Of a stretch of DNA of 43,005 nt, positions 9,119 through 42,689 are shown one piece after another. Under the pieces are notes generated by a model. It had not been told where the DNA came from. It saw only the letters and a program-made list of their open reading frames with translations, and made no database searches. The translations under genes were made by a program, and so were the position numbers. Within the stretch, counting starts at the first letter, position 1. Each line of letters begins with the position of its first letter. This DNA comes from Terriglobia bacterium (GTDB lineage Bacteria > Acidobacteriota > Terriglobia > Acidiferrales > UBA7541), in contig JAIQFB010000035.1 of the NCBI GenBank assembly GCA_020073485.1, forward strand, positions 1 through 43,005, read 5' to 3'.

Positions 9119-10210
9119 ATGATGCGCCAGCCATTTGCAGGAAAGCCCACGGCCTCACCCGGCATCTTGCGAGCGTTATTTGCCGCTTTCGCTATTTTTG
9201 CTTGCATGGCCGCCGCAAGCTACGCTCAAAAGCGCACCGAATCGCTCCAAGGCCCTTCGGTCGCCAGTCGCACTCCGGCCTATGACGCGCCCGCCAGCGA
9301 GTTTGCCGGCCCCGAAGCTTGCAGGGATTGCCACAAGAACGAAACCATCCAATACGAGAAGACCGGTCACGCCAAGATCGTTTTCCCGGGCAAAGATTAT
9401 ATTCACGGCTGCGAAACCTGCCACGGCCCGGGAAAAGCGCACAGCGACGCCGTTCAGGCGGCGCATGGCGACGATGCGGATATCGCCAAGGCGCTCGTGG
9501 CGCACCCGATCTTCGCATTTAAGGGCAAGGCGGAAGAAAACGCATCGCGCTGCCTGTCCTGCCACGTCTCCAGCAAGCAGCAATCGCTATTTGAACATTC
9601 CGAGCACGCCGGCCACGGTATTTCCTGCAACCAATGCCACTCGGCCCACTTGGTGGATGAAGTCAAGGACGCCGCAAAGGGCGACATGAGTTATCCCCAG
9701 GGTCACTTCTTCCAGCTTCCGCAGATCGCCGATGAAAACCGCTGGCGGCACAACAGCATGCTCAAGCGAGCCGAGCCTGCGCTGTGCTACGACTGCCATC
9801 AAACCGTGCAAGCGCAATTCGCGCAGCCCGAACACCACCGCGTTCCCGAGGGGCTGATGAAATGTTCAGACTGCCACAACCCGCACGGTTCGGAGAATGT
9901 GGCGGCCCTGAACCATCCCGGCGCGGAAACCTGCGTGAAATGCCATGTCGAGAAGCGCGGGCCATTCGTATTCGAGCACCCGGCGGTGAAGGTCGAAGGA
10001 TGCGTCACCTGCCACAATCCGCACGGGACTGCCAACCGCATGCTTCTGGTGCGTCGCGAAGGCCGGCAGCTCTGCCTGCAGTGCCACACCGGATTCCACG
10101 GGCAGCTGGGCGCTCCGCACGGCAAACTTGGATTCCAGACCAGCGGCGAGTGCATCCGCTGCCACGTGACCGTACACGGATCGAGCTTGGATCCGAATTT
10201 TCTGCGATGA
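9119..10210 (+). CDS. Decaheme c-type cytochrome, MtrA/DmsE family
   Basis: The 363-aa product begins with a signal peptide (hydrophobic stretch FAAFAIFACMAAASYA, cleavage near residue 36). It then carries exactly ten CXXCH heme sites: CRDCH, CETCH, CLSCH, CNQCH, CYDCH, CSDCH, CVKCH, CVTCH, CLQCH and CIRCH. Ten hemes at this length is the signature of MtrA/DmsE/MtoA/PioA cytochromes. These fill an outer-membrane beta-barrel and conduct electrons across the membrane. The ATG has AAGG seven bases upstream. Its stop overlaps a possible start of the following porin gene (ATGA), as expected for tight partners. Confidence 0.95.
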   Translation: MMRQPFAGKPTASPGILRALFAAFAIFACMAAASYAQKRTESLQGPSVASRTPAYDAPASEFAGPEACRDCHKNETIQYEKTGHAKIVFPGKDYIHGCETCHGPGKAHSDAVQAAHGDDADIAKALVAHPIFAFKGKAEENASRCLSCHVSSKQQSLFEHSEHAGHGISCNQCHSAHLVDEVKDAAKGDMSYPQGHFFQLPQIADENRWRHNSMLKRAEPALCYDCHQTVQAQFAQPEHHRVPEGLMKCSDCHNPHGSENVAALNHPGAETCVKCHVEKRGPFVFEHPAVKVEGCVTCHNPHGTANRMLLVRREGRQLCLQCHTGFHGQLGAPHGKLGFQTSGECIRCHVTVHGSSLDPNFLR

Positions 10211-10221
10211 GGGATGATGTC

Positions 10222-12252
10222 ATGAAATCCAGCGCCCGATCCATTCTGCTCGTAGCAGGTTTTCTGATGTTGGCGCCTTTGGCCGGCGCGCAGGACAATT
10301 CGCAGCCCACTCCCATCGTTCTGGGCGATTTCACATTGTCCGGCTCCACAACGGCCGGATACCGCTTCACCGACGTCAAGGGATACCAGCCCGAGTACCA
10401 GGAAATGCTCAATCTGGGAAAAGGCTTCCGGGTGCTCGATTTCAGCCTCTATGGCGAAGCGAGTGAGGGCAAGAATCCTTTCGCTGACGAATTCTCGCTG
10501 CAACTGGGAAGCTTGGGCGGCGATCCGTTTCCCACGGCCCAGTTCGCGATTTCCAAGAAAAAAGTGTACGACTTCCGCGCCGACTGGCGGCAGAGCTACT
10601 TCTACTGGAACCAGAATGACAACGTGGTCCTGCCGATCGTCGCAGCGGCCGCGCCGGGAGCAATCTCCAAGGGCCTGACCGCGAATCAAAGCTGGGCCAC
10701 GGTGCGCAAGTTCGGGTCCATGGATCTCACTCTCTACGCCACCGACAACCTGCGCTTCCATTTCGATTACTATCGCCCGTCCGACCAGGGCAACACGTAC
10801 ACCACGCGCGGGATGGACTTCTTCGGCTCTCCGAACTTTTGGGGCACCTATGTCCGGGCCAACCCATATGTCATGCTTGCTCCGCTCACCGATAACACCA
10901 ACCGGATTACCGGCGGGTTCGATTACACGCTGAAGGATTGGAACTTCCATTATTCCATCGGCTACCAGACTTTTACGGAAGATATAGCCTTGAACAACGT
11001 GACCGCGGGCGAGTTGAGCATTAATCCGATTGCCAGTTCTCTTACCGAACCCTTGGAGAATGTTTCCTGGTCGCAATTCCGGCGTCTATCCACTCCTATC
11101 AGCGAATTTAACTTTGTCGGCAAGCCAATCTCCAGGCTGGAATGGCGCGGCAGTTACATGTATTACCGCTACGAGGGCCCGGTCAACTTCACCCAAGCGT
11201 TCAACGGATTCGCTCCCCCCGCCTCCGGCCCGGTGGCGCCTTTCACGGTGAGTGAAGGGGCGAACGCCAATGTCACAGAGCCAAACCACATCCTTAGCCA
11301 GGGGCTGACCTTCACAATTCTCCCTTGGTGGAAGCTCGATCTCGACTATCGCTATTCGCGCTTCACCAGCGACTCCACGGGAAAGTACCAAAGTCTGTTC
11401 AACGGCGTGACCGCGGCGTCCGGGACCACCGAAACGATCTGGCGCGACGGCCTGAGCGACCTGGCCATCAGCATGGACTTCACGCCCATCCGCTCGCTGG
11501 TGATCCGCCCCGGTGTTCAATTCATGAAGTCCGACGTCGAGACCTTTACCAACGGCGTGATCAGTCCCGGACGCACCTTGAGGACGAAAACGGCGCGGCC
11601 GGAAATCAGTTTCGGCTTCGAGCCGTCGAAGCTGTTCAGTATCCGCGGCGACTATCACAGCACGGACAACAGCGCCTCCTATACGGCGATCTCCCCGCAC
11701 ACGCAGCAGGCCACCCATTTTGTGGTGCGCATCCATCCGATCGACAAGGTCACCATCGAGGATGAACTGAGTATCGCCAACAACCGCTTGCTCGCGGCTA
11801 ATTACCAGAACAATATCCGCTCCAATGCCATCACCGTTTCCTACGCGCTGGGAGACCGGTTCTCAGTCTTTGGAGGATTCAGCTACGACAGCTACTATGC
11901 GGCCGGAGACATCCAGTACGCGCGCGGAACGGGGCTATTGTCCCAAACTCTGCAGGATCAGGAACTGAACCGCACCTGGTCGGGCGGCATCGAGGGAAAG
12001 CCCACGAAGCGGCTCGGACTGCGCATTTCGGGGAATTACGACCGCTCGAGCGGCGTCGGCGCAATCTCCGGCGAACCGCCTGCCTACGGGCCCATGGTCT
12101 TTCCGCTCATTACCGGCACGGTATATTACAATCTTCCCGTCGTCGGGCAGTTCGCAGTAGACTTGCAGCGCACTTACTACGTCGAGCAGATTGTGCCGGT
12201 GAATAATTTCAGCGCCAATCTGTTGACCCTTCGCTGGACGAAGGCGTTTTGA
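10222..12252 (+). CDS. MtrB/PioB-family outer-membrane beta-barrel protein
   Basis: The 676-aa product has a signal peptide (MKSSARSILLVAGFLMLAPLAGAQ) and then a long series of alternating, aromatic-rich beta strands. It ends in phenylalanine (LLTLRWTKAF), the usual outer-membrane assembly signal. Segments such as DFTLSGSTTAGYRFTDV and the repeated 'WRGSYMYYRYEG' style match MtrB/PioB porins that sheath a decaheme cytochrome. I see no N-terminal CXXC, which some Shewanella MtrB proteins have. The start could also be the ATG at 10207, which overlaps the cytochrome stop; I prefer 10222 because GAGGG precedes it and the signal peptide begins there. Confidence 0.88.
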   Translation: MKSSARSILLVAGFLMLAPLAGAQDNSQPTPIVLGDFTLSGSTTAGYRFTDVKGYQPEYQEMLNLGKGFRVLDFSLYGEASEGKNPFADEFSLQLGSLGGDPFPTAQFAISKKKVYDFRADWRQSYFYWNQNDNVVLPIVAAAAPGAISKGLTANQSWATVRKFGSMDLTLYATDNLRFHFDYYRPSDQGNTYTTRGMDFFGSPNFWGTYVRANPYVMLAPLTDNTNRITGGFDYTLKDWNFHYSIGYQTFTEDIALNNVTAGELSINPIASSLTEPLENVSWSQFRRLSTPISEFNFVGKPISRLEWRGSYMYYRYEGPVNFTQAFNGFAPPASGPVAPFTVSEGANANVTEPNHILSQGLTFTILPWWKLDLDYRYSRFTSDSTGKYQSLFNGVTAASGTTETIWRDGLSDLAISMDFTPIRSLVIRPGVQFMKSDVETFTNGVISPGRTLRTKTARPEISFGFEPSKLFSIRGDYHSTDNSASYTAISPHTQQATHFVVRIHPIDKVTIEDELSIANNRLLAANYQNNIRSNAITVSYALGDRFSVFGGFSYDSYYAAGDIQYARGTGLLSQTLQDQELNRTWSGGIEGKPTKRLGLRISGNYDRSSGVGAISGEPPAYGPMVFPLITGTVYYNLPVVGQFAVDLQRTYYVEQIVPVNNFSANLLTLRWTKAF

Positions 12253-12302
12253 GCAGGGGAAGATCTTGAAAAATATACTCTTCGGAGGTCGAAGGAAATC
12301 CA

Positions 12303-12662
12303 ATGATTAAGGCGATCGGATTTGCAAGACTCGTGGTTAGCGCAGGCCTTGCCTTGGCCCTTATTTCAGGGGCGGAGGGCGTTTTGCGAGCCTCCCCGCT
12401 TCCTCAGAAGAGCGCACAGGACGTGTACCTCGACAAGTGCTCCGTGTGCCACGCAAAGGACGGCTCCGGGAACACGGCCAAGGGCCGCAAGGTCAAGGCC
12501 AAGGATTTGCGCTCGGCCGAGATCCAGAAAATGAGCGACGCCGACCTGATCCACGACGTTGCCCAAGGCAAGGGCAAGGACATGGACGGGTTTGAGAAGG
12601 AGCTCGGCGCCGATATGGTGAAGCAACTCGTCGCCTACTGCCGCTCGCTCGCCAAGCAGTGA
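12303..12662 (+). CDS. Monoheme cytochrome c, periplasmic
   Basis: The 119-aa product has a signal peptide (to about residue 34) and a single heme site, CSVCHAKDGSGNTAKGRKVKA. It ends with a helix ADMVKQLVAYCRSLAK typical of class I cytochromes c. A methionine near residue 97 or 103 may be the second iron ligand. The start has AAGGA seven bases upstream. It follows the porin gene by 50 bases and could carry electrons between the inner-membrane and outer-membrane parts of the conduit. A strong hairpin follows. Confidence 0.9.
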   Translation: MIKAIGFARLVVSAGLALALISGAEGVLRASPLPQKSAQDVYLDKCSVCHAKDGSGNTAKGRKVKAKDLRSAEIQKMSDADLIHDVAQGKGKDMDGFEKELGADMVKQLVAYCRSLAKQ

Positions 12663-12727
12663 CGCGCGCGGGCCGAAAGCTTCACAATAGTTGAAGTTTC
12701 TGGTGGCCTGAGTTTCAGCAAGAAAAG

Positions 12728-12780
12728 GCCCGTTACGTGACAGAACGAGCGCCAGTTTTCGTCACGCGGGCTCTCTTTTT
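12728..12780 (+). terminator. Rho-independent-type terminator after the monoheme cytochrome
   Basis: GCCCG-tta-CGTGAC pairs with GTCACG-CGGGC across a 19-base loop and is followed by TCTCTTTTT. It would separate the decaheme/porin/monoheme unit from the NapC-like gene. Confidence 0.65.
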
Positions 12781-12920
12781 GAAGGTTTCCGGGATGGGGG
12801 AGCATGCGTCTTAGCAGATTGCTCCCGAACAGTTTCGCTGATCGCACGGGTGCGGGTTGCACTTGCTTGTCCTGATGAAGATAAGGACAGCCCGCCGAAA
12901 TATGGAGCCGGTCTTTTCCC

Positions 12921-13562
12921 ATGGATACCACAACACTCATTCCGATTTTCTTCACAATGATTGTGGCCGTACTCGGTCTGTTCACCGCCATGCGCCCGGA
13001 ATTTACATCGGCGCGCGGCGGCAAGATCCTTGCCTTTGTGGCGCTCTGCATTTTGCCGGTGCTCTCCGTGTGGGCAGGCTTTGATGCTCAATTAGACCGT
13101 TCGACTTCCACACAGTTCTGCCTTTCCTGCCATGTCATGGCCGATTTCGGCAAGAGTCTTTATGTGGATGACAAGAGCTATCTCCCGGCAGCGCACTTCC
13201 AAAACAACTTCGTCCCGCGCGATCATGCCTGCTTCACCTGCCATACCGATTACACCATGTTCGGAGATTACAAGGCGAAGTGGCGCGGCGTGCACCACGT
13301 CATCGTGCAGTATTTGGGAACGATTCCAAAGCCCGCGGACATCAAGCTTTACACGCCCTACAACAACCGCGAATGCCTGCATTGCCACGCGGGCTCACGC
13401 GTGTACGAGGAAGCCGCCCCGCATCACAAGACCCCGGACATGCTCGCGCGCGCGGCGTCCAATCAGCTCTCGTGCATGTCCAGCGATTGCCACGAATTTG
13501 TGCATGACGTGGCGGACATCGGCGGCGCAGCATTCTGGAAGCCGAAGGCGGGTGGGCAATGA
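12921..13562 (+). CDS. NapC/NrfH-like tetraheme cytochrome, membrane-anchored
   Basis: The 213-aa product starts with two hydrophobic segments (about residues 6-22 and 35-52) and then has four heme sites: CLSCH, CFTCH, CLHCH and CMSSDCH. The last is a CX4CH site, a spacing known from tetraheme cytochromes c3 but unusual in this family. NapC/NrfH/CymA proteins oxidise quinol and pass electrons to periplasmic cytochromes, which fits the neighbours. The ribosome site is weak (GGAG 13 bases upstream), so the start is not certain. The stop overlaps the next ATG (ATGA, 13559-13562). Confidence 0.85.
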   Translation: MDTTTLIPIFFTMIVAVLGLFTAMRPEFTSARGGKILAFVALCILPVLSVWAGFDAQLDRSTSTQFCLSCHVMADFGKSLYVDDKSYLPAAHFQNNFVPRDHACFTCHTDYTMFGDYKAKWRGVHHVIVQYLGTIPKPADIKLYTPYNNRECLHCHAGSRVYEEAAPHHKTPDMLARAASNQLSCMSSDCHEFVHDVADIGGAAFWKPKAGGQ

Positions 13563-13753
13563 CGCCGGTCGTGATCCAACGAAACATCCGCTGGTCGGGC
13601 CGGCTCATCGTGATCGGGTTGGTGGTGCAGATGCTGTCTTTGCTTTGGACGCATCCGCTGGCCTTCGTGTGTTTTCTTCTAATTGGGTGCCCGCTGGTGG
13701 GCGCTGGAATCCTGTTTTTCCTTTACTCGCTGGTTTCCCACGAACACGCATGA
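13559..13753 (+). CDS. Small two-helix membrane protein linked to the NapC-like cytochrome
   Basis: The 64-aa product has two hydrophobic helices (about residues 14-32 and 35-58) and a short charged end (SHEHA). Its ATG overlaps the stop codon of the tetraheme cytochrome by four bases, so it is almost surely co-translated. I recognise no family. A role in assembly or stability of the cytochrome, or as a small subunit, is inference. Confidence 0.7.
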   Translation: MTPVVIQRNIRWSGRLIVIGLVVQMLSLLWTHPLAFVCFLLIGCPLVGAGILFFLYSLVSHEHA

Positions 13754-13981: not shown

Positions 13982-14986
13982 CTACATCTTCACGACAAAC
14001 GTATTGCGGCGGATCAGCGATTGCATCTGATCGTCGCTGAGGGTCAGCTTGAGGTCGAGCCGGTCGCCGGCAGGGGCGATTTGCGCGCTGTCGAGCAACT
14101 GGCCCAGGTCCGGGTTTGTGCTTCCCACCTGATATTTCTTGTACATCAGACCGGCCTGAAGCAGCGCGGCAAAGGTGTTGGCGTCGTCGGTGGAGCCGCA
14201 GACCGCTTCAAACTTGGCATCCACTCCGCTGCCGCCTTTGATACTGATGGTCATGGCCTTCAGTTTGGAGGTGAGTTGCGCGGCGGCGGGGAATTGTCCG
14301 GTTTCAGGCACCAGCTGCTGCATCGCCAGGCGCGTATACGCCGGATTGAGCACGGCCCAGACCGTGCCGCTGCCATTGGCTTGATCGACCAGAGCCGAAA
14401 AATCGGTGTTGGCGTAAAGTCCCTGCGCCTCGCCGAACCGCACGCCGATCATTTTTTCGAGCTGCGCGCGCTGGCCGAAGGCTGCGGTATTGGAGTCGAT
14501 GAAAAAGAAGAAAAGATCGTTGGGGCCGCTGCCGCCGCCAAACGCAAACAATGAGAAGGTCCGAATCTTCACGATGGGCAGCTTTTTAGCCGTGAAATAG
14601 GCTTCGGCGGTGGCGGGTTGAAACTGTCCGAGGGCGACTCCAACAATCTGGTCCGCGCTGGGGACCGAGCCCACGGCGCTGTCGGTGGTCGCCTTGCCTG
14701 GGACCAGCGCCCAGGCCAGTTCCGTGACCTGAGTGTTCGGATCGATGCCTGCCGAGGCGAGGAAGGTCTCAAAGTCGCGGAACTTCGGCGGCAGCATTTG
14801 TTCCTTGAGCTGCGCGAACCACGGAAATTGCCGCGCCTGCTTCAGGTCGGCATACGCAAGTTCGCCCGATTCCTTGGGGAACATGCTGAGAATATCGGAT
14901 CCGACGCTGCCCGCGCGAGAGGTTCGCGGCACGGCGCAAACCATCGCGACAAGAATGCTGGTCCAAATTATGATTTTTACTTTCAT
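13982..14986 (-). CDS. Secreted protein of unknown function
   Basis: The 334-aa product has a clear signal peptide (MKVKIIIWTSILVAMVCAVPRTSRAG). The mature part begins with ILSMFPKESGELAYADLKQARQFPWF. It contains a glycine-rich turn (FGGGSGPNDLFFFF) and several amphipathic strands, and it has no cysteine cluster or known catalytic motif. The pattern resembles secreted orphans common in Acidobacteriota (from memory). It stands alone, upstream of nothing on its strand and 38 bases from the end of ftcD's transcription unit. No function is offered. Confidence 0.8.
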   Translation of the reverse strand: MKVKIIIWTSILVAMVCAVPRTSRAGSVGSDILSMFPKESGELAYADLKQARQFPWFAQLKEQMLPPKFRDFETFLASAGIDPNTQVTELAWALVPGKATTDSAVGSVPSADQIVGVALGQFQPATAEAYFTAKKLPIVKIRTFSLFAFGGGSGPNDLFFFFIDSNTAAFGQRAQLEKMIGVRFGEAQGLYANTDFSALVDQANGSGTVWAVLNPAYTRLAMQQLVPETGQFPAAAQLTSKLKAMTISIKGGSGVDAKFEAVCGSTDDANTFAALLQAGLMYKKYQVGSTNPDLGQLLDSAQIAPAGDRLDLKLTLSDDQMQSLIRRNTFVVKM

Positions 14987-34860: not shown

Positions 34861-36141
34861 CTATTGAATCAAATCAGTTTGCATCGGTGGCCAAACAATC
34901 GCTTCAACATCACGCCGATGGATGGGGGCTGAATAGTCCCGCACAAGTCCAGCCCTGATCCAATCAACAGCATCCCACCCAATCAGTCCGGCCATCGTGG
35001 GAGCGCCGAAGGTCGGCTCATCACTATCAAGCCGTTCTGCTGTCAGTTCCACATCTGCCGCATGCTCTTGCGTTGCCGGCTCGCTGTGCCCAGTTAGCGT
35101 AGCCAATTCAATGACGACATCTACCACATCATCCGGGTTCCACTCGGCTCGCAGAAGCATTCCCGCAAGTGCCCAAAATGCCTCACGGCAACTTTCATCG
35201 TCCTGCGGCCATCGGCGCGCTAGGCGTTCCAGTGTCCGCGTGCGCTTGTTTTTTTCATTGTCCTTTACCTCCTCAACGATGGATCCCCGGCGATTCTTGG
35301 CGATTCGGACCCGGTAGTCCTGTTCTGAGAACTTAACCCGGTCACACATCTCCATAAGTCGGCTTGCAATGCGCTCGTCAATCTGGTTTAGCGCCTCAAA
35401 ATCGATGTTGCTCGTCACCACAAGCACGATCTCGCGGGTGTAGCATTCGTCCACAAGGTGTAGAAGTGACTGGCGAACGTAGTCGGTAGCTTTTTCCGAG
35501 CCGAAGTCATCCAAGATCAGAAAGTCGGCGGTGTCAAGAATCTCGTAAACAACTTCTTCCGCGCTCTCCCTCCGACCGAACGCTGTCTGGCAAAGCAATA
35601 TGAAACGGCGAGCATTTATGAACCTGCCGCGAAGGCCACGCTTAATTAGCTCTCGCATTGCCGCCACGGCTAAATGCGTTTTGCCGGTTCCGACACTGCC
35701 GAACAGATACAGGCCAACCCCCAGATCGCTGGAGGTCCAGTTCCGTATAAATCTGACCTTTTCTGACAATCGCTCAGTGTGGGCTGTAAATCCGGAAAAC
35801 GTGCGGTCCAAGCATTTGAGGGGAACTCCAAAGCGTTGAAGCGTAGTCCGCACACACTTCTCGTGGCATTGTTCACTGCAATAGCCGAACCGCTGATGGT
35901 TTGGAATTTCATCCTGGGCGGGCGGAAGCTCGAATCGCTCATTACATCCTCGGCAGTATCTCTGGCGATTCTTGCGGTCTCTGCACACTGAGCACTCGGT
36001 TTCGCCTTCTGGAAGGCGGTCATCACAAGTCAAACAATGCCCGTGAGTCGGAGTTTCTTGGCAGTTGCAGTGCGCTTTGGCATCAAGGCGTTGTATCGTC
36101 TCGCGAATCTCAACGCATGGATTAATAGACTGGTAGGTCAT
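34861..36141 (-). CDS. DnaC-like AAA+ helicase loader with zinc-finger N-terminus
   Basis: The 426-aa product would load the replicative helicase at the element's origin. Residues 1-100 hold at least four Cys/His pairs (HCNC, HCLTC, CSVC, CRGC, YCSEQC), likely zinc ribbons. The ATPase core has Walker A GSVGTGKTHLA (148-155), Walker B LILDDFG (208-212), sensor 1 VVTSN (243-245) and arginine finger RIASR (257-261), as in DnaC/IstB. The last 130 residues (ALAGMLLRAEWNPDDVVDVVIEL...GAPTMAGLIGWDAVDWIRAGL) resemble C-terminal tails of phage primase-polymerases; this is inference. The ATG at 36141 overlaps the initiator gene's end by 20 bases. Confidence 0.85.
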   Translation of the reverse strand: MTYQSINPCVEIRETIQRLDAKAHCNCQETPTHGHCLTCDDRLPEGETECSVCRDRKNRQRYCRGCNERFELPPAQDEIPNHQRFGYCSEQCHEKCVRTTLQRFGVPLKCLDRTFSGFTAHTERLSEKVRFIRNWTSSDLGVGLYLFGSVGTGKTHLAVAAMRELIKRGLRGRFINARRFILLCQTAFGRRESAEEVVYEILDTADFLILDDFGSEKATDYVRQSLLHLVDECYTREIVLVVTSNIDFEALNQIDERIASRLMEMCDRVKFSEQDYRVRIAKNRRGSIVEEVKDNEKNKRTRTLERLARRWPQDDESCREAFWALAGMLLRAEWNPDDVVDVVIELATLTGHSEPATQEHAADVELTAERLDSDEPTFGAPTMAGLIGWDAVDWIRAGLVRDYSAPIHRRDVEAIVWPPMQTDLIQ

Positions 36142-36957
36142 CGAATTTACTCTTTTCTTCGGAATGTGATGCTCGCGACAGGGTCGCCACAACTTGTTCG
36201 TCCCAGCGACGATCATTCAGAAAGGTGGCAGGGTAGGGAATGTATCGCCCACCATCGCGGCTCCATTGGTCGGTTTTCTTCCACTCCTCGACAGAAGAAA
36301 GAATAGCTGGGACCTCTGAGGGTTTGATTTTCTTCCAAGATTGAGAAGACCTCCTCTTGTTCACCTTTCTTGGATATACCTTCCAAAACTCGTCAAAACC
36401 TCCACCCCCCGCTTCTAGGGGATTAGGTTCTTTCTCTCTGTTGTCACTCTGCCCTCTCATCTCTCTATTACCCGCCACTTTGCGGACAAAGTGACGACAG
36501 CTTTCCGACACTTCCCCGACAGGCTCGTACACCGGGTGACGCCAATCGGTTGTAGCTTCGGCGTTTACCCTGTATTCCTTCCCCGACAGATCATGAACAC
36601 TTCCCCGACAAAGTATCGTCGGATAGTTACCACGCTTTCCTGGGGTTTTGAACGTCTTCAACCATCCGATAGCCTCTAAATGCTTCAGGCATCGCTGGAT
36701 GGTACGTTCGGAAACACGACGGCAATGGGCGTGTATGGCCGGGGCACTGGTGAAGCAAACGCCAGCAGGGATCGAAGACTTGCTGCCGATAACGAGATTG
36801 GCTTTAAGACAGAGATAATCGTGTATCCCATTCTCCAAGAGATCAATCTTGTCATTCTCAATGTGTTCTAGTATCCCGCGACGCCGCTTGTAGAATCCGG
36901 CATTGGCGGTTTTGGTTTTTTCTGTTGACGCTGGTAATGAGGATGCCTTATTTGACG
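36122..36957 (-). pseudogene. Phage-type replication initiator, 5' end cut off by an IS3 element
   Basis: The frame stays open from 36957 (the IS edge) to the stop at 36122: SNKASSLPAS...GFYKRRRGILEHIENDKIDLLENGIHDYL, then a winged-helix part with SERTIQRCLKHLEAIGWLKT, and a C-terminal FDEFWKVYPRKVNKRRSSQSW...YIPYPATFLNDRRW typical of phage replisome organisers. There is no good start before 36838 (a TTG). Reading past the IS, the bases at 38204-38210 give ATG GTA A on the minus strand. Joined to CG TCA AAT AAG at 36957, this restores an intact gene starting MVTSNK (about 279 aa). The gene is therefore split by the IS after codon two. It precedes the DnaC-like gene in an operon. Confidence 0.75.
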
Positions 36958-37017
36958 TGACCGGCTTGAATTAGTCCAGCGGGAGTGAGAGAAAATCACT
37001 CTAAAGGAGAGCTGGAC

Positions 37018-37296
37018 ATGCCGATGAAGAGATACAAGCCGGAGCAGATCGTGAATCTCCTGCGGCAGATCGAAGTGGAAATCGCGAACGGAAAAACCAC
37101 ACCGCAAGCCTGCAAGGAAGCAGAGATTACTCAGCAGACCTACTACCGCTGGAGAAAAGAATTCGGCGGTCTAAAGCTGGATCAAGCGAAACGGATGAAG
37201 GAACTGGAACGGGAGAACGCGAAGCTGAAGCGTTTAGTGGCGGAACTGTCTCTGGAGAAGCAGATCCTGAAGGATGTGGCCTCGGGAAACTTCTAA
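37018..37296 (+). CDS. IS3-family transposase OrfA
   Basis: The 92-aa product ([27 protein letters not shown]...[22 protein letters not shown]) has the helix-turn-helix and leucine-zipper ([25 protein letters not shown]) of IS3-family OrfA. AAAGGAG lies eight bases before the ATG. It binds the element ends. Ribosomes can slip by -1 at GGGAAAC (37284-37290) to make an OrfAB fusion; the zero-frame stop comes six bases after. Confidence 0.93.
37284..37290 (+). promoter_or_regulatory. Programmed -1 frameshift site (G_GGA_AAC)
   Basis: In the orfA frame the bases read G GGA AAC, a canonical X_XXY_YYZ slippery heptamer, with the orfA stop TAA two codons later. Slipping here continues into orfB, which lies in the -1 frame. 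Confidence 0.7.
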
Positions 37297-37319
37297 GCCC
37301 TGAGCGGCGGCGTTGTGCG

Positions 37320-38162
37320 GTGGAGCATGCGCGCGAAAAGTATGAAGTAAGCGAGCGGCATGCCTGTCGGCTGCTGGGGCAGTGGCGAAGGACACAACGC
37401 TATGCCGCGATCCAGAGGATCGACGAGGATGAGCTGACCGGAACGATCATTGCCCTGACCAGTGAATATGGGCGCTACGGCTATCGGAGGATCACTGTGG
37501 AGTTGCGTAAAGCGGGCTGGCAGGTGGGTAAGGATCGGGTCCAGCGCATCTGGCGGCGGGAGGGGCTGAGGGTACCACAGAAGCAGAAGCCCAGAGGGCG
37601 GCTATGGTTCAACGATGGATCATGCGTGCGGCTGAGGCCAGAGCGGGCCAACCACGTTTGGGCCTATGATTTCGTGAGCGCGATGACGCACGACGGGCGG
37701 ATGCTGCGCCTTCTGGTGCTGATCGACGAATACACACGGGAATGCCTGGCAATTCGAGTGGCAAGGCGGTTGGGGAACTCTGAAGTGATCGAGACGTTGG
37801 CAGACGTGATGGTGTGGCGAGGTATCCCGGAGCACATTCGGTCTGACAACGGCCCAGAGTTCGTAGCCAAAGAACTGCGGAAGTGGCTGGGGATGATCGG
37901 AACGGGCACGCTGTACATCGAGCCCGGGAGTCCCTGGGAGAACGGCTACTGCGAGAGCTTCAACGGAAAGCTACGGGATGAATGCCTGAACGGGGAGATC
38001 TTTTACTCGCTGAAGGAGGCGCAGATCGTGATCGAAAAGTGGCGGGTGGAATACAACACCAGGAGACCACACTCGGCGCTCGGCTATAGGCCGCCGGCGC
38101 TGGCGGCCTATAGCCCCCTGGTTCCACCAAACTCAATTTCGAAACCAATGACTGTGATATAA
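37320..38162 (+). CDS. IS3-family transposase OrfB (DDE catalytic part)
   Basis: The 280-aa product, or more likely the back end of an OrfAB fusion, has the DDE triad: [15 protein letters not shown] and [17 protein letters not shown]. All appear intact. Upstream of the nominal GTG the frame is open across the slippery site and encodes [16 protein letters not shown], a conserved part of the fused protein. The ending [17 protein letters not shown] is the usual IS3 C-terminus. The IS may still be mobile. Confidence 0.93.
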
Positions 38163-39692: not shown

Positions 39693-42100
<2,408 letters not shown>

Positions 42101-42257
42101 TCTCGGGGGAAAGTTCTTGATTGACTTATAAAGTGCAGCCTCGACCTAGCGAGCAACGCTGCAAGCTGCGGAGAAACGGCGACTGAGGATGCTTCGAGGG
42201 TACTACTTTCTTTGTCGCGCATAACGGCATGCAGTTTTATGGTGTTTGGAGGTTGCC

Positions 42258-42689
42258 ATGACGATGCGCTTTGCAGTCTTGTTTAGCGTCTTGCTTTGCA
42301 TAGTCAGCTCATTAAGAGCCGATGGGCGATCAGAGATGGATAGCCCACAGCTTCCTTCGAACTATGTGCCCTCCGGTAAGGCGATGTACAAAGATTATTG
42401 CGCCGCCTGTCATGGTCTCGACGCCAAAGGCAACGGACCTATGGCTCATATGTTGAAGCTGCCACCAGCGGATCTCACGACTCTTGCCAATCGTCACGGG
42501 GGGAAATTCCCATACGAGTATGTTTCAGGCGTTTTCCGTTTTGGAACGGGTGCTACGATTCTTCACGGTGCAAAGGATATGCCCATATGGGGTCCCATCT
42601 TCAAATCCCTTGATAAGAACAACGAGCGTGTCATACAGCTACGTATCAAGAACCTCTGCAACTATCTGGCGTCTTTGCAAGTGAGGTAA
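42258..42689 (+). CDS. Monoheme cytochrome c, secreted
   Basis: The 143-aa product has a signal peptide (MRFAVLFSVLLCIVSSLRADG), one heme site (YCAACHGLDAKGNG) and a likely Met ligand in AKDMPIWGPIF. It ends with a helix RIKNLCNYLASLQV. The pattern is that of class I cytochromes of alternative respiratory chains. GGAGG five bases before ATG 42258 decides the start over TTG 42246. It follows katG by 157 bases and may serve as an electron donor in the same oxidative-stress unit, but that is inference. Confidence 0.9.
   Translation: MTMRFAVLFSVLLCIVSSLRADGRSEMDSPQLPSNYVPSGKAMYKDYCAACHGLDAKGNGPMAHMLKLPPADLTTLANRHGGKFPYEYVSGVFRFGTGATILHGAKDMPIWGPIFKSLDKNNERVIQLRIKNLCNYLASLQVR

Follow-up and report, generated by a model that had tools for sequence, protein, structure and literature searches.

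The window analysed here (the whole stretch of DNA, 43,005 nucleotides) makes up all of contig C1, a 43-kb contig from a 5.05-Mb Terriglobia bacterium genome (46 contigs, 97% complete). Positions 9119-13753 of the forward strand hold five genes, which encode a decaheme cytochrome, a barrel (porin) protein, a monoheme cytochrome, a tetraheme cytochrome and a small protein with two predicted helices (Table 1). The gaps between the first four genes are 11 bp (decaheme to barrel), 50 bp (barrel to monoheme) and 258 bp (monoheme to tetraheme). The G+C content is 0.583 for the operon and 0.578 for the contig, and a promoter and terminator scan of the operon returned counts near the shuffled expectation.

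Table 1. Genes of the operon and their positions in the window.
Feature	Position	Strand	Remarks
Decaheme c-type cytochrome, DmsE/MtrA family, type-1 acidobacterial clade	9119..10210	+	363 aa, 10 CXXCH
26-strand outer-membrane barrel, MtrB-like fold, likely decaheme sheath	10222..12252	+	676 aa, predicted fold
Monoheme cytochrome c, periplasmic, likely shuttle	12303..12662	+	119 aa, one CXXCH, PF13442
NapC/NrfH-superfamily inner-membrane tetraheme	12921..13562	+	213 aa, three CXXCH and one CX4CH, PF03264
Two-helix membrane protein	13559..13753	+	64 aa, ATGA overlap with tetraheme stop

The other window genes that were scanned, among them those for a glycine cleavage P protein and an AMP-binding enzyme, show no connection with these five, and three ORFs nearby have no Pfam match. 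The gene after the operon (13982-14986) lies on the opposite strand and also lacks a Pfam match; the preliminary description had stated that no DMSO-reductase gene follows, and none is found there or among the five genes. Its statement that no MtrC/OmcA-type gene adjoins the operon holds equally, since no further ORF of at least 80 aa in the 43-kb contig carries more than one CXXCH. Only one other contig ORF of this size has a CXXCH; it encodes a monoheme cytochrome (42246-42689) and follows a peroxidase-domain protein (731 aa, PF00141) within 39905-42689. Additionally, ORFs of the IstB-like ATPase and integrase-core kinds lie at 34861-38162 and probably belong to insertion elements.

The identical five-gene order is present in eight further named contigs (L010, L012, L013, L017, L018, L038, L049 and L061) and is kept down to about 34% decaheme identity, the nearest named relative in the scan being L013, from a Terriglobia MAG, whose decaheme is 91% identical to the one in the window. 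The conserved order, together with the profile matches given below, rules out chance or mis-framed genes. As a decaheme query was used to find the named loci, the order of their genes does not count as independent of it; a second sample, led by the tetraheme, is independent. Genes in the relatives are longest-frame calls, and strands and helices are predictions throughout.

The decaheme cytochrome scores 209.7 bits against the DmsE/MtrA model TIGR03508 (cut-off 192.2) and, with its ten heme motifs, belongs to that family. Its best PDB match is 6r2q_A (E 7e-32; printed under another molecule name, the entry 6R2Q being the Mtr complex), with NrfB 2ozy and 6qvm far behind. Its relationships were mapped in a maximum-likelihood tree of 77 decahemes (midpoint root for drawing only), which was kept small by omitting 22 of the 64 genome-contig loci and in which two of the 20 reference loci (L168 and L174) gave no clean row. 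In this tree, the window decaheme and 12 acidobacterial rows form a clade of their own, here called type 1, with support of 100/100. A branch supported at 100/97 separates 46 rows (the window and most other acidobacterial decahemes) from the side that holds the Mtr and Mto references, namely 11 rows that form an Mtr-type group (99/88) and five Mto or Mto-like rows, whose fork (97/87) includes one other row. One acidobacterial row, L109, falls on this second side, where it adjoins a Latescibacterota sequence. Because the 100/97 branch splits most acidobacterial rows off, the window decaheme is placed by its sequence outside both the Mtr and the Mto groups, among references labelled by gene order (their neighbours) and not by name. 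The comparison with MtrA and MtoA suggested in the preliminary description leads, in other words, to an acidobacterial clade distinct from both.

For the barrel, profile searches and predicted structure give different degrees of agreement with MtrB. The protein scores below the cut-offs of both TIGR03509 (MtrB/PioB; 20.1 bits, cut-off 240.05) and PF11854 (21.7 bits, cut-off 23). The AF2 model, built with 30 aligned relatives, has a mean pLDDT of 81.4, and 26 long strands can be counted in its DSSP line, the number described for MtrB (PMC7198977). Foldseek places 6r2q_B (MtrB) first (E 5.1e-15, TM 0.65/0.67), the next match standing at E 3.3e-11 and TM 0.39/0.36. In VIA-align, 6r2q_B gives a Z of 22.0 (rmsd 3.4, 560 of 649 aligned, 12% identity) and the runner-up a Z of 17.7 with an rmsd of 12.7. 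Since 244 PDB entries match the model at E <=0.001, mostly TonB-dependent and other barrels among those listed, the assignment to MtrB relies on the margin and coverage of 6r2q_B. The model supports an MtrB-like 26-strand fold, so that the proposed match of the porin to MtrB fails at the level of family profiles and stands at the level of predicted fold. The protein contains no cysteine and ends in F. An N-terminal CXXC is absent from it and from all three Mto-type reference barrels examined, and present in all four MtrCAB-type reference barrels examined (of six so labelled).

The inner-membrane end of the operon is where the new part lies, in a tetraheme with an extra helix and a CX4CH fourth heme, and in an unclassified two-helix partner. 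The tetraheme, which is the only PF03264 (NapC/NirT) match of the genome (42.0 bits, cut-off 24.1), falls in the NapC/NrfH superfamily. Its fourth heme site reads CMSSDCH, the first three being CXXCH. In the alignment of ten members (A1), all ten share a CLSCHxM (CXXCHxM) first heme, a CX4CH fourth heme and two N-terminal hydrophobic segments, and the lysine after heme 2 is invariant. Seven reference tetrahemes (from conduit loci of a Thiobacillaceae genome and of genomes in the same class as a betaproteobacterial one) have instead one hydrophobic segment and four CXXCH, and are 22-33% identical to the window protein over the aligned stretches. In a profile-profile comparison (probability 97.1, E 6e-11), the single helix of one Mto-type tetraheme (L177) pairs with the second helix of the window protein. 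Against the PDB, the A1 profile has one, weak match (NrfH 2j7a, E 0.22), and a further alignment profile (A3) has none at E 1. The structure model of the tetraheme, made from ten sequences, reached a mean pLDDT of 52 and was set aside. The small protein is conserved across relatives (alignment A2) and, at E 0.01, has no match in Pfam or NCBIfam. The monoheme cytochrome scores 32.2 bits against PF13442 (cut-off 27).

Searching with the tetraheme profile (E <=1e-20), we found matches in 67 of the 399 class genomes (including the one that holds the window), in 48 of the 317 good class genomes (25 of 136 genera) and in 20 of 396 genomes of a phylum-wide sample. The distribution is patchy, the protein being absent from most genomes examined, including several of the same family. 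The lowest-scoring class matches (E 1e-26 to 1e-33) may represent a sister family, the heme-4 motif having been read in the 65 fetched rows only (49 distinct by core sequence). The CX4CH motif occurs in 57 of these 65 rows, with the small protein downstream in 54 of the 57 and the monoheme upstream in 50. A decaheme lies within 8 kb of the tetraheme in 14 of the 20 class loci fetched. The remaining six comprise three with an octaheme protein (L123, L124 and L126), one with a three-heme ORF (L125) and two in which the contig ends about 2.5 kb upstream (L116 and L127). The monoheme-tetraheme-small protein module serves two decaheme/porin types, that of the window (type 1) and a type 2 (e.g. L110-L115). 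Beyond the class, nine further loci of the phylum-wide sample follow a looser pattern, with octahemes in L191 and L194, a nine-heme ORF in L193 and, in L192, the fused protein described below; four-CXXCH tetrahemes stand beside divergently transcribed decahemes in L186, L187, L188 and L190, and beside a broken decaheme in L189. An exclusive link between the CX4CH tetraheme and decaheme conduits, which looked strict in the class loci, was dropped, as four-CXXCH tetrahemes adjoin decahemes in L186-L190. As a separate observation, four-CXXCH relatives of the tetraheme adjoin an octaheme protein (PF13447 in L123) in L123, L124, L126, L191 and L194, where no porin was recognised. The L123 octaheme, the only one of the three class octahemes scanned, has hydrazine dehydrogenase as its best NCBIfam match, far below cut-off.

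The same loci show how the lack of a neighbouring surface cytochrome should be read. Among 22 distinct loci with both tetraheme and decaheme (nine named and 14 tetraheme-led, one genome being in both), another ORF with at least eight hemes occurs within 8 kb, as far as the sequence reaches and second decahemes aside, only in L118; L029 and L049 have, near the conduit, a protein of about 270 aa with five hemes. With one locus in 22, having no neighbouring surface cytochrome is usual in this operon family and not peculiar to contig C1. The suggestion, made from the window alone, that the missing neighbour points to a new partner is weakened by this, and also by the Mto system of Sideroxydans lithotrophicus ES-1, which is likewise described without MtrC (PMC8805035).

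The search for surface cytochromes elsewhere in the genome, recommended in the preliminary description, had a divided outcome: the OmcA/MtrC-family profile (TIGR03507) found no match in the genome, and a second decaheme/porin-like set and other multihemes provide candidates. The second set (contig C7, ~34.7-42.3 kb; L008 4692-12265) comprises a decaheme that is 35% identical to that of the window and above the TIGR03508 cut-off, followed by a porin-like protein of about 1000 aa (27% identity to the window barrel over ~200 residues; no NCBIfam match) and then by a cupredoxin-like protein that scores under the Pfam cut-off, a ferredoxin of the 4Fe-4S type and NrfD. On contig C2 (92.0-111.5 kb; L077 6317-18259), a 1273-aa multiheme (9 CXXCH and 1 CX4CH, LVIVD repeats) adjoins a possible barrel protein of 788 aa whose last residue is F, and multihemes of 454 aa (10 CXXCH) and 470 aa are also encoded. 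By eye, this cluster also includes a protein in which some stretches look cyclic-nucleotide-binding-like and others ferredoxin-like. Contig C45 carries a 548-aa protein with 9 CXXCH. The C2 and C45 multihemes could include surface cytochromes, and a statement that the genome has none was dropped, as only the absence of OmcA/MtrC-family matches was found and the C2 proteins are candidates.

In some relatives, the inner-membrane module itself is exchanged. The tetraheme and small protein are kept in five of the nine named type-1 loci (L010-L018), and the contigs of two others (L011 and L016) end within the barrel gene. L014 has a Rieske protein and cytochrome b in place of the pair. L015 has two multiheme proteins there, one with nine hemes and a formate-dehydrogenase-gamma-like domain, the other of NapC type. 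We tentatively take the L015 replacement proteins to resemble the quinol oxidases CbcL and ImcH. A survey of quinol oxidases counted homologues of both for Acidobacteria (PMC6295460). Rieske and cytochrome b genes were seen beside the conduit in L014 (8629-10623, the Rieske protein by profile), L110 (10072-12129, by eye) and L119 (6026-8176, by eye). The outer-membrane end varies as well: in L192 (6399-9132; the same genome as tetraheme row L180), a 423-aa fused monoheme-barrel protein is followed by the monoheme, the CX4CH tetraheme and the small protein. The fused protein carries its single heme site behind the signal peptide, is barrel-like by eye over the rest and has no Pfam match. Its heme motif is near the published Cyc2 consensus (PMC8406198) but does not meet it. 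Matches to this protein occur in 13 of the 396 phylum genomes, the genome of the window having none.

Taking the heme motifs, the decaheme phylogeny and the predicted barrel fold together with the gene content and its conserved order, we consider it somewhat probable that the five genes specify a conduit that is linked to the quinone pool, spans periplasm and outer membrane, and carries electrons outward to an extracellular acceptor. The conduit reading is supported by the decaheme and barrel having the A and B chains of 6R2Q as their best solved matches, and the quinone link by the membership of the tetraheme in the NapC/NrfH superfamily, with its CXXCHxM first heme and the invariant lysine after heme 2. 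The parts of a full path between the quinone pool and the outer face, as the preliminary description had outlined it, are borne out by heme motifs, profiles and predicted barrel fold. In the proposed mechanism, the tetraheme and its two-helix partner would take electrons in the inner membrane from menaquinol, the quinone of the phylum. The monoheme would shuttle them from the tetraheme to the decaheme, and the decaheme, presumably assembled within the 26-strand barrel, would deliver them to the outer face. There, without a dedicated MtrC, they might pass directly to an extracellular acceptor, such as humic quinones, Fe(III) in mineral or chelated form, or a surface cytochrome whose gene lies elsewhere. 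The likely job would be quinol-linked extracellular respiration (Fe(III), humics). The shuttle role is proposed by analogy, because the monoheme PmcA of the Mto system was shown to interact with both ImoA (tetraheme) and MtoA, whereas MtoD interacted with neither of the two (PMC13390432). In support of outward transfer, MtrAB or MtoA/MtrB alone are reported to move electrons outward for Fe(III) reduction (PMC4245776), and acidobacterial decahemes have been proposed for Fe reduction in peat soil (PMC3669403).

The direction of flow is the point at which this reading meets its strongest competitor, namely that the same conduit works inward, with extracellular Fe(II), an electrode or a partner cell oxidised at the decaheme and electrons passing through the monoheme and tetraheme to the quinone pool, as proposed for Mto. 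We judge inward flow unlikely. The parts are like those of ES-1 Mto (MtoA, MtoB, ImoA, MtoD and PmcA; PMC13390432), a characterised system described as lacking MtrC (PMC8805035) and assigned to Fe(II) oxidation, which by analogy speaks against outward flow. The absence of an N-terminal CXXC in the barrel is shared with the Mto-type barrels, and the Cyc2-like fused monoheme-barrel of L192, joined to the same module, would fit electron uptake. Nevertheless, the decaheme lies outside the Mto group, and ImoA itself is reported to oxidise quinol in Shewanella although Mto is assigned to Fe(II) oxidation (PMC9600427), so that such a tetraheme can be argued in either direction. Outward flow is favoured because the replacements in L014 and L015 look like quinol oxidases and because the genome has no match to the RuBisCO large chain (the only carbon-fixation marker searched). 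The Rieske/cytochrome b pair could also run in reverse, and for the octaheme partners of L123, L124 and L126 either a reductase or an oxidase role is conceivable.

A further alternative, which we consider improbable, is that the conduit is half of a larger surface network, in which the decaheme would either feed a cytochrome, surface-bound or extracellular, whose gene lies elsewhere (e.g. the LVIVD multiheme of C2) or work with the C7 set. It draws on the ten heme sites of that multiheme and the possible barrel beside it, and on L108/L010, where the type-1 operon is directly followed, in tandem, by counterparts of the C7 decaheme, porin-like protein, cupredoxin and ferredoxin. However, the conduit and the C2 and C7 sets are not co-located in their own genome, no OmcA/MtrC-family protein was matched there, and L118 is alone among the 22 loci in having another such multiheme nearby. 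That the conduit serves a specific extracellular reductase, in the way that DmsEF serves DmsAB, is highly improbable, for although the DmsE family model takes in both the window decaheme and the second one of the genome, on C7, the operon has no molybdopterin-type gene and is followed by the opposite-strand gene without a Pfam match.

Outward conduction remains our preferred reading, and a more general proposal can be attached to it with some hesitation. The tetraheme and its two-helix partner may form an unnamed acidobacteriotal inner-membrane quinone complex, which would plug, via the monoheme, into several outer-membrane ends (the two decaheme/barrel classes and the fused monoheme-barrel), the direction perhaps being set by the partner; we put this forward as a tentative idea whose chances are somewhat below even.

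Acidobacteriota are abundant in soils, and the case for their role in the redox cycling of iron and humics comes mostly from hints in genomes. The two-helix CX4CH tetraheme and the two-helix protein offer a marker that surveys based on CymA or MtrC may miss; the quinol-oxidase survey, for instance, counted zero CymA homologues in Acidobacteria (PMC6295460). Additionally, the five-gene kit is a simple test bed for an outer-membrane wire without an adjoining surface cytochrome. Conduits without a surface cytochrome have already been published, as have acidobacterial decaheme or decaheme/porin genes (PMC13390432, PMC10654088, PMC3669403, PMC8805035 and PMC7399161). A five-gene acidobacterial operon with a two-helix CX4CH tetraheme and small partner was not met in the open-licence PMC literature searched, and we make no claim that it is unpublished.

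Based on a comparison with known systems, the operon combines familiar outer-membrane parts with an unfamiliar inner-membrane end. It differs from DmsEFABGH in having no molybdopterin DMSO reductase among its five genes. With PioABC of Rhodopseudomonas palustris, as described in PMC10654088, it shares the decaheme and barrel, but the barrel gene is followed by the monoheme, tetraheme and two-helix protein instead of a HiPIP gene (pioC). The decaheme family and barrel fold are also those of Shewanella MtrCAB (6R2Q), from which the window differs in lacking MtrC and the CXXC, in a barrel only 12% identical and in a quinone module within the operon. The Group 5 Acidobacteriia MtrCAB is likewise an acidobacterial decaheme/barrel conduit; by its description (PMC8805035), it has MtrC and a periplasmic tetraheme without an adjacent inner-membrane quinone oxidoreductase, unlike the window, which has a NapC-like protein and no MtrC. 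PF03264 and the CXXCHxM first heme are common to the window tetraheme and the NapC/NirT/NrfH proteins (CymA, ImoA and NrfH), to which the window adds an N-terminal helix, a CX4CH fourth heme and a small membrane partner. The closest gene set is that of Mto from ES-1 (compared here through Mto-type loci such as L177, standing in for the ES-1 sequences), which likewise joins a decaheme, a barrel, a NapC-superfamily tetraheme and a periplasmic monoheme without MtrC. The closeness to MtoAB-type pairs put forward in the preliminary description accordingly holds for layout and gene set and stops at the proteins themselves: the window decaheme is split from Mto by the 100/97 branch, its tetraheme has two segments and a CX4CH fourth heme where the references have one segment and four CXXCH, and its operon encodes, in addition, the two-helix protein.
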